Part shown: positions 1 through 24,023 of the stretch, one piece after another
Numbering within the stretch: position 1 is the first letter of the stretch
Layout of the letters: every line of letters starts with the position of its first letter
Source of the DNA: an uncultured Candidatus Saccharibacteria bacterium
GTDB lineage: Bacteria; Patescibacteriota; Saccharimonadia; Saccharimonadales; Saccharimonadaceae
Length of the DNA: 64,000 nt
Assembly: GCA_947168825.1 (NCBI GenBank)
Contig: CAMVNH010000002.1
Coordinates: 94,457-158,456, forward strand
Direction of reading: 5' to 3'
The notes under the pieces: model-generated
Databases searched by the model: none
Told to the model about the DNA's origin: nothing
Seen by the model: the letters and a program-made list of their open reading frames with translations, nothing else
Translations under genes and position numbers: made by a program

Positions 1-118
1 GAATGGGCAAAGGCTAGCGGCAAAAGTATTCAAAAAATATGGTTGGGACTATTGTTTTTGATTTTTTGGCGGGGCAGAGGTTGTGTGGAAGGCAGTAGCT
101 CCGGCTGCGAAGCGCGGG

Positions 119-132
119 GGCTCTACCGAGCC
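119..132 (-). other. Short hairpin at the 3' end of the template repeat
   Basis: On the minus strand GGCTC-GGTA-GAGCC forms a 5-bp stem with a 4-base loop exactly across the stop codon that ends the TR frame. In well-studied retroelements a GC-rich initiation-of-homing sequence and a small hairpin mark the 3' boundary of the repeat or target. The position is suggestive, but the stem is short. Confidence 0.4.
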
Positions 133-300
133 AAGCAGCGGACTGAATTTCCGTTGTACTTGTTGTTGTTGTTCTGCGAGTTGACGTTCGACGTATTCAG
201 GTTCAGGTTGTACGCGTTTCTGTAATTGTTTACCGTACTAGACCAGAAGTTGCCGTTGCTACCCGCGTTGTTGCGACCGCCAGTGTTGACGTTGCCACTG
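123..300 (-). repeat. Candidate template repeat (TR) of a diversity-generating retroelement
   Basis: Read on the minus strand and translated in one frame, this stretch gives a 57-residue peptide with 20 asparagines, of which 17 are AAC and 3 AAT codons. It ends in SVRCLAR and a stop. AAC-rich sequence ending in an N-rich, YNG, RC-type C-terminus is the hallmark of DGR template repeats: adenine-specific mutagenesis of AAC codons in the copied variable repeat gives many residues and no stop codons. The template itself is normally transcribed but not translated. Here a TATAAT (307-312, minus) lies about 7 bases before the repeat, which fits a dedicated TR transcript. The reverse transcriptase is not visible; it would be expected just beyond the left edge. 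The repeat boundaries are inferred from the N-rich core. The alternative, a real N-rich protein C-terminus, is less likely because the upstream part of the reading frame looks random. Confidence 0.72.
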
Positions 301-306
301 AGCGAT

Positions 307-312
307 ATTATA
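307..312 (-). promoter_or_regulatory. -10 box in front of the template repeat
   Basis: A perfect TATAAT on the minus strand ends seven bases before the start of the AAC-rich repeat, so transcription would begin at about position 300. No good -35 hexamer is seen at 17 bases. Other promoters in this window show that TATAAT is the genome's consensus -10. Confidence 0.5.
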
Positions 313-18185: not shown

Positions 18186-19184
18186 TTAGTCTTCGAGGAG
18201 TTTGCAGACGAGACTAATAATAAGTGGTCTTTCGGAAGGATTGGACTCGGCGATTAAGAGAGCAATAGCGGTGAGGGCACGGTCAGAAATCTTAGTTTCG
18301 CCATTCTTAGTGAGATTGCAGTCGTTGATGGTGAGAAATACGATGAATAACAGGGAACCGATGCGTTTGTTGCCGTCGTAAAATGGGTGGTCTTTGATGA
18401 TAAAATAGAGGAGGTTGGCGGCTTTTTCGGCGACAGTAGGGTAGAGTTCGGCTCCGTCGAAGCTTTGATAGATAGTTTTTAAGTTACCTTCAAAACTGTC
18501 ATTTCGGCGTTTGCCAAAGAGATCACTGGCGGAGAGGTTATTTTTTAGTTTTTTGATTAAGTCTTCGCAGTCTTTCAAGTCTAGGGTTTTCTGGCGTTTT
18601 TTCGGGTTTAAGTTTTTTAGGTCGATATGGCCATTGTCGAATTGTTCAAGGGCTTTGAAGCTGCCGGCATATTTGGAGATAACCTCTAGGACACCATTGG
18701 CCTCGGGGCCGTCAAGCTCTTGGCGAGCAATAAGACGACGAACGACGCCCATCATATTTTCAACGTTTTTTAGCTTTTTTGTTTCGAGTTGGCTGAGGCG
18801 ATGCTCGTTTATGGCTATGCCGTTTACGACGTATTGTTTTAGGGTTTTTGTGGCCCAGATGCGGAAATCGGTGGCTTTTTTCGAGTTGACACGGTAGCCG
18901 ACGGAGATGATGGCATCGAGATTATAAAAGTTGACCTCGCGGCGAACTTGGCGTTTGCCCTCTGTTCGAACTATTAAGTTTTTCTTAATAGTTCGATTTT
19001 CTTCTAGCTCTTTTTCGGCATAAATTTTTCGTAAATGCATATTAATGTTAGGGGTTGTAACATTAAATAGCTGAGCAATTTGGTCTTGTGTGGCCCAAAT
19101 AGTTTCATTGTTTTTGTCAACATCAAAAACAATTTCGCCTTCTAGGACCTTGTAGATTTCGATTTGTTGATTTTTTGTATCCAC
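18186..19184 (-). CDS. RhuM-type protein fused to a Doc-like Fic domain
   Basis: Residues about 1-110 form the RhuM (virulence protein) N-terminus, with ETIWATQDQIAQLFNVTTPN, LRKIYAEKELEENRTIKKN and YNLDAIISVGYRVNSKKATD followed by RIWATKTLK. The C-terminal 120 residues are a Fic/Doc fold whose active motif reads HPFYDGNKRIGS. The NKR end of the motif is of the Doc kind, which phosphorylates targets such as EF-Tu, rather than the AMP-transferring HxFx(D/E)GNGR kind. A GTG at 19184 is preferred, because an upstream ATG lies inside the promoter (TTGCAA-N17-TACAAT, 19228-19256). No separate antitoxin gene is adjacent. RhuM-Fic proteins are widespread and usually considered toxin or defence related. 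Confidence 0.85.
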   Translation of the reverse strand: MDTKNQQIEIYKVLEGEIVFDVDKNNETIWATQDQIAQLFNVTTPNINMHLRKIYAEKELEENRTIKKNLIVRTEGKRQVRREVNFYNLDAIISVGYRVNSKKATDFRIWATKTLKQYVVNGIAINEHRLSQLETKKLKNVENMMGVVRRLIARQELDGPEANGVLEVISKYAGSFKALEQFDNGHIDLKNLNPKKRQKTLDLKDCEDLIKKLKNNLSASDLFGKRRNDSFEGNLKTIYQSFDGAELYPTVAEKAANLLYFIIKDHPFYDGNKRIGSLLFIVFLTINDCNLTKNGETKISDRALTAIALLIAESNPSERPLIISLVCKLLED

Positions 19185-22556: not shown

Positions 22557-22646
22557 GGTGGAGTGGCCGAGTGGTTGAAGGCGCACGCTTGGAAAGCGTG
22601 TATGCGGGCAACCGTATCGCAGGTTCGAATCCTGTCTCCACCGCCA
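22557..22646 (+). tRNA. tRNA-Ser (anticodon GGA)
   Basis: Type II tRNA with acceptor GGTGGAG/CTCCACC, discriminator G, anticodon stem CACGC/GCGTG and loop TTGGAAA, long variable arm, TTCGAAT and encoded CCA. It reads UCC and UCU. TATAAT lies about 10 bases upstream. Confidence 0.96.
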
Positions 22647-22706: not shown

Positions 22707-24023
22707 ATGAAAAAAGTAATAGGAAAGTTGAGTTCGGTTGTCCTTTCTGGAGTTTCTTTGTTGTTTTTTACTTTTGTAAGTGCTAATTTTGGCGAAGCCT
22801 GGGCCACCGCTTCAGTTTCTGGTGATGTGGAAATTTCGGTAGGCATTACTCCATCCGTGGCAATATCAATTCAAAGTCCGAATGATGATGATCCGACTTG
22901 TGTAGCGATTGGACAGAATCCGAAGCCTTCTTGTGCACGAGCGACTGTGGACTCAAACACGTACAGCTCTTCCTATTCTGACGTAACGGTGTTCACAAAC
23001 AATACTAGTGGGTATGGATTGACGGTATCAGCGGAGGAACCAAATTTAGTAAGTAGTACGGATAGCAATAATGTAATACCGACCGGGATTCTATCAGTGA
23101 ATAGTGATGGAACGGTACCTGGCGGACAGAACAAATGGTCATTTAAGACGGATGGTTATATTGAAAACTGGACGGCAATGTCGGTGAGCCCAATTACAGT
23201 AGTAGCGTATAATGCACCTACACCTACTGGAAATACAACGCGGGTGACCTATGGGATTTCTGCGGGAACGAATCCAGCTGGTTCTTATGAAACGGAGTTG
23301 GTTTATACGGCGACGGTTTTTGATGGCGAGAATCCGGATTATGAGGGAGACGTAGCGTATATGCAAGGGTTTACTTGTGGATCAATCGAGGAAGGTGAAA
23401 CGACGACTTTGATGGATCGGCGAGACAGAAAAACTTATGCGGTATCGAAACTTGCGGATGGACTTTGTTGGATGACGGAAGATTTGAAACTTGGTGGAGA
23501 TTATGACATGCAACTAACATCAACATATTCTGATGTAACATCTGATTTCGTGTTGAGGGCAGAAAATACCGGAACATGGTGTACAACAGATGACGCAAGC
23601 TGTACTGATCAGAGTTTAATGTTGAAGACTGGGGCGCCGAATGGGTATCTATACAACTGGTATGCGGCAACGGCAGGTGGTGGTACCTATGAAACTGAAT
23701 CGGGAATGGTGGAAAGTTCAATTTGTCCGAAAGGCTGGAAGCCACCACATGGCGGAACTGGTATTGGGTCGTTCTATTCGATTACGCAGACTTATGATAC
23801 GGTGGCGAAGTTGCTCGATACTCCAATTCCAGCGTTTAATTTCACTGGGTTTAGGAATGGTGCGAGCGTAAACTTCCCAGATTCTGGTGGTTATTATTGG
23901 GCAAGATCAGCGGTAAGTGCATCGAATGCAAACTACTTTGTATTCTATGGTAATGTAGTGAATCCACAACATTCTGGGAACAAATATTATGGCTTTGCAC
24001 TAAGGTGCGTGTCCACGTTATAA
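22707..24023 (+). CDS. Secreted FISUMP-domain protein with DGR-target-like C-terminus
   Basis: A signal peptide ([20 protein letters not shown], cut near an ATA site at about 37) leads into a beta-rich, Ser/Thr-rich region of about 190 residues. Then follows a FISUMP-type (Fibrobacter succinogenes major paralogous) domain: [29 protein letters not shown] and ICPKGWKPP. This resembles the C-type-lectin-like fold used as DGR targets. The last 43 residues align without a gap to the candidate template repeat at 123-300 (14 identities), including N-A, N-x-Q, NKY-x-G and RC. Codon third positions do not match that template, so it is not a direct recent copy. The ATG at 22707 is chosen for its GGAG. 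It probably works as a surface adhesin or ligand-binding protein. Confidence 0.85.

Follow-up and report, generated by a model that had tools for sequence, protein, structure and literature searches.

Is a gene whose protein ends like the translation of a retroelement template rewritten from that template, or is it a fixed member of the family to which the rewritten genes belong? The question is raised by a gene in the window, that is, the whole 64,000-nucleotide stretch of DNA analysed here (G000:C2:94457-158456). The assembly from which the window comes measures 578 kb and is rated 87% complete, with ~13% of the genome estimated absent. The features needed to follow the argument are these:

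22707..24023, plus strand: gene for a FISUMP-domain protein of 438 aa, predicted to be secreted and probably a static paralog of retroelement targets (ORF and translation; PF09603 above cut-off; two species have orthologs, 71% and 62% identical)
23406..24014, plus strand: FISUMP domain, residues 234-436 (TIGR02145 profile positions 1-175 of 176, below the curated cut-off)
23886..24008, plus strand: 41 codons aligned with the template translation, read as no variable repeat (mismatches 27/46 at template A, 44/77 at non-A; no other copy in the genome)
22557..22646, plus strand: tRNA-Ser (GGA), directly upstream of the FISUMP gene, given for context only (ARAGORN)
100..307, minus strand: TR1, the template repeat of retroelement 1, together with the downstream motif that it shares (matches C2:92266-92473 at 90%, the mismatches falling at template A; translation rich in Asn)
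1..61, plus strand: 3' end of the reverse transcriptase of retroelement 1 (372-aa ORF C2:93399-94517, L021:12943-14061, mostly upstream of the window; PF00078; motifs QGIVIGNLSSQ and YVDD)

We first describe how genuine targets behave in this genome. Retroelement 1 consists of a target gene with the variable repeat VR1, followed by a 286-aa accessory ORF and the reverse transcriptase; TR1 comes next, on the opposite strand, within a minus-strand template ORF at 123-413. The VR1 target (C2:90846-92450) differs from TR1 at 15 of 46 template A positions and at none of the 77 others (p=7e-8), and a remote target (C3:99002-101041) has 20/46 mismatches at A and 4/77 elsewhere. With an RVT_1 reverse transcriptase carrying QGIVIGNLSSQ and YVDD, a template and an A-specific target, retroelement 1 is a diversity-generating retroelement (DGR). 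Contig C1 harbours a second retroelement with a template of its own (TR2); its two targets are both remote, one lying on C4 (18/44 mismatches at A, 0/79 elsewhere, p=6e-10) and the other at C1:165216-167267 (15/44 and 5/79). The genuine targets of this genome thus carry 0-6% mismatches at template non-A positions. Pairs of these four disagree in 10-15 of the 16 Asn columns and in just 3-6 of the 25 others, and each has 15 to 40 bases past its stop codon in common with its template. The ORF of 286 aa that separates the target gene from the reverse transcriptase (L021:12096-12956) gave nothing above cut-off in Pfam, NCBIfam or PHROGs and may be a divergent accessory protein; it has a relative in the second cassette (L022:162-1019).

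FISUMP (Fib_succ_major) proteins are known as DGR targets from human microbiomes (PMC4159848), and we asked how far the resemblance of the window protein to the template goes. The preliminary description had reported a gapless C-terminal alignment of a FISUMP protein to the template, with 14 identities and 13 replaced Asn positions. This alignment stood, and the counts were right to within one: over 41 gapless codons ending at RC, the window gene has 13 identities to TR1 and 14 to TR2, and 13 of the 16 template Asn positions hold another residue. The wide third-codon divergence that had also been noted was confirmed, 29 of 37 template non-A third-codon positions being mismatched. The ungapped BLOSUM62 score against the TR1 translation was 62, compared with a shuffle mean of -28 (sd 14; z 6.3), and none of 20,000 shuffles scored as high. 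That an Asn-rich template and an unrelated C-terminus should look alike by chance, a reading favoured by nothing beyond the low percent identity, is therefore hardly credible, and it was rejected since both the window gene and the target of the template are recognised as containing a FISUMP domain.

Membership of the family rests on a Pfam PF09603 score of 35.8 bits (cut-off 33.9); the NCBIfam TIGR02145 score of 34.5 bits lies below its cut-off of 41.65, with positions 1-175 of 176 covered. Compared with other PF09603/TIGR02145 proteins, the window protein has the domain and the C-terminal consensus W..A..K..G..RC, preceded by an extra long N-terminal region. The W, A, K, G and RC are a family consensus, for they recur in FISUMP proteins from viral contigs and from a Saprospiraceae bacterium. 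The long N-terminal extracellular region is common only to Saccharibacteria orthologs and paralogs, and its N-terminus reads like a signal peptide, from which secretion is predicted. A scan of viral contigs returned nothing closer than distant FISUMP proteins, and a search of solved structures by sequence returned none for this protein. Full-length structure prediction from four sequences gave a pLDDT of 29. Whether the domain has the C-type-lectin fold by which DGR targets present their variable residues was asked of a model of the FISUMP domain only, from twelve sequences. This model was moderate (pLDDT 61, pTM 0.65) and had no significant PDB or viral structure match; the predictions thus added no support for a display role, and no claim made here rests on the domain model. 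As in the human-microbiome targets (PMC4159848), the domain is C-terminal, where those targets hold the variable repeat; unlike them, the window gene would itself be no target, only its paralogs. The FISUMP domain is common to the window gene and the DGR targets by descent, and the window C-terminus resembles the template translation because this end of the domain is also what the template encodes, Asn codons marking the positions free to vary. The resemblance is family homology and does not make a template/variable-repeat pair.

Protein-level likeness to a template is insufficient to call a gene a variable target, as a static paralog from a large domain family shows the same Asn replacement. 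The decisive test is the distribution of DNA mismatches between template A and non-A positions. By this test, the window gene has no adenine bias: against TR1 it is mismatched at 27/46 A positions (59%) and at 44/77 non-A positions (57%; p=1), and against TR2 at 25/44 and 45/79. The near-identity to the template, adenines excepted, by which DGR targets are recognised was not found in view of the 44/77 non-A mismatches. Consequently, there is no support for the statement that the Asn replacements look like those of a variable protein compared with its template. A DNA search of the genome with TR1, which had been proposed as a check for the template's best match, did not return the window gene; the exact variable repeats lie in other genes, the VR1 target and the C3 target described above. 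Downstream of its stop codon, the window gene shares no IMH-like motif with the four targets or their templates.

A gene that escapes both templates of its genome might still be the live target of another one, lying in the part absent from the 87%-complete assembly. It would fit that several retroelements are often found together in one genome of this genus and that contigs frequently stop at a variable repeat. A DNA search with the C-terminus of the window gene found it only once in the assembled genome. The same search in G016 and G033, two genomes rated 97-98% complete in which orthologs occur and are static too, gave ortholog matches or nothing, with no template copy. The lack of a second copy, in the genome or beside the orthologs, disfavours another template, as does the conservation of the orthologous proteins in the face of nearly saturated silent changes; we regard this explanation as very improbable.

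These orthologs came from a comparison of 174 genomes of the genus, made between species with one genome per species. Only two of the 174 have one: G016 (71% identity), whose contig corresponds to Saccharibacteria isolate RGIG2350 from goat ileum, and G033 (62%), which is goat jejunum isolate RGIG2566 according to the record of a sister contig. In the three ortholog pairs, identity over the 43 template-aligned residues is 79, 74 and 93%, compared with 62, 49 and 47% over the N-terminal part. In the same 43 residues, silent differences are near-saturated (pS 0.63-0.85) and replacements rare (pN 0.05-0.16); the C-terminus is thus under purifying selection across species. The preliminary description had named synonymous-dominated drift between strains, together with an exact variable repeat in another gene, as the findings that would tell against it; we found such drift between species, and exact variable repeats in other genes. 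Variation confined to template-A codons was absent between species, each represented by one genome. Between G000 and G016, six of nine replacements fall in the 16 Asn-aligned columns and three in the 25 others, which is above proportion and not significant (p=0.12). Mismatches of the G033 ortholog are weakly enriched at A (0.58 vs 0.36; one-sided p=0.03, uncorrected and with the best template chosen first), a level that other static genes reach. The ortholog adjoins an apparent truB in G016 and G033 (L060, L061); the window copy lies between tRNA-Ser and other genes, and from these differing neighbours it would seem that the gene has moved.

We then scored the FISUMP genes of five genomes against the templates detected there; some templates went undetected, so some of the genes labelled static could change class. 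Targets had 0-7 mismatches at ~60 non-A positions and static genes at least 17; the window gene had 30/61 and no A bias. Three genes of genome G156 lay between these groups with 12-14 non-A mismatches, and were still A-biased (0.39-0.61 at A vs 0.20-0.23 elsewhere); they are likely old targets. By this measure, the window gene is unlike aged targets of the G156 type. The survey bears on the last alternative, that of a fossil target: a DGR-target ancestor would have lost its template and been frozen before G000, G016 and G033 separated, one of its variants being kept by purifying selection. A tree was built on the domain minus its last 41 residues, the three longest branches being unsure. In this tree the three orthologs form a clade (100/100), nested in a larger clade (98/100) with two other static genes and two DGR targets, G016:C19:227-2074 and G033:C24. 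Target ancestry is consequently possible, which counts against the static reading, and the G016 ortholog lies ~1.8 kb from G016:C19:227-2074, an active remote target. The static clade may descend from a frozen target, or static genes may have given rise to the targets by recruitment; the tree does not order these two states. In addition, C or T is the last base of 12 of the 16 Asn-aligned codons of the window gene, as it has to be in codons derived from AAY, compared with 48% of all codons of the gene. These endings hint weakly at a fossil; the orthologs have them in common by descent. Against such an origin, the gene retains neither residual A bias nor the shared downstream motif, and the three likely old G156 targets are A-biased to this day. 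We consider a fossil target unlikely. If it were one, the gene would be a domesticated target: of the specificities in a hypermutated family, one would have been captured, cut off from its template and then fixed by purifying selection in at least three Saccharibacteria species as its paralogs stayed variable; we hold this to be similarly doubtful.

Of the three options that the preliminary description had left standing, then, a static relative is the best supported, a fossil comes a distant second and the target of another template is disfavoured. Most probably, the window gene is static and paralogous to the genes that two DGRs of its genome target. As a static paralog, it would be rewritten by neither retroelement, and its C-terminus would change by ordinary point mutation under purifying selection. 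The protein would be exported via its N-terminal signal and show one fixed binding surface, the DGR-target paralogs showing variable ones; its function would require constancy, and variety would be supplied by the paralogs. The window gene thus offers a natural control, a fixed family member in a genome that rewrites its sisters. A static FISUMP relative is in itself ordinary; the surrounding DGR setting is less so.

Candidate-phyla bacteria are DGR-rich, often with several per genome (PMC8144416, PMC10907252), and our search of the literature, partial in its coverage, found no report of DGRs in Saccharibacteria whose targets are FISUMP proteins. Of the 174 genus genomes, 172 contain relatives of the window protein, as many as 89 first-look candidates being counted in a single genome, and 96 contain relatives of the reverse transcriptase; about half of the genomes carry such a retroelement. 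Earlier work has described strand inversions as well as variable repeats that are remote or multiple (PMC3521204, PMC6642488); the DGR of Pseudogulbenkiania sp. NH8B has four variable repeats, some of them distant (PMC3521204). Like this DGR and that of Thiohalocapsa PB-PSB1 (PMC10907252), both retroelements of the window's genome reach targets distant from their cassettes. In 23 of 24 cassettes with a recognised template (L092-L121, window 1-307), template and reverse transcriptase lie on opposite strands and are convergent, and nearly all convergent templates lie 44-190 bases past the 3' end of the reverse transcriptase. The target of retroelement 1 is co-directional with the reverse transcriptase and its template convergent. 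The 'inverted' DGRs of PMC3521204 are arranged otherwise, template and target being together opposite to the reverse transcriptase; here the templates are convergent to it.

Like the multi-repeat DGRs (PMC3521204, PMC10907252), a single template in G016 (L122, G016:C24:61891-62013) serves at least six variable repeats, matching loci on C14, C24:64345, C19, C20, C11 and C8, one of them partially. Among the five complete repeats, four have no mismatch at template non-A positions and one has three. With about half of these ruminant-gut Saccharibacteria carrying such retroelements and one G016 template serving at least six genes, the group provides a setting for asking what host-attached bacteria bind. 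The G033:C24 gene (L062:3565-5007) has 6/65 non-A mismatches to a G016-type template, and the sole reverse transcriptase found in G033 has a different template; this gene is possibly an orphan target. Finally, at a contig end of the window's genome (G000:C6 near 18405-18494, L028), a 36-base exact copy of the TR1 downstream motif is followed by what appears to be a truncated start of an accessory ORF, possibly the relic of a third cassette.
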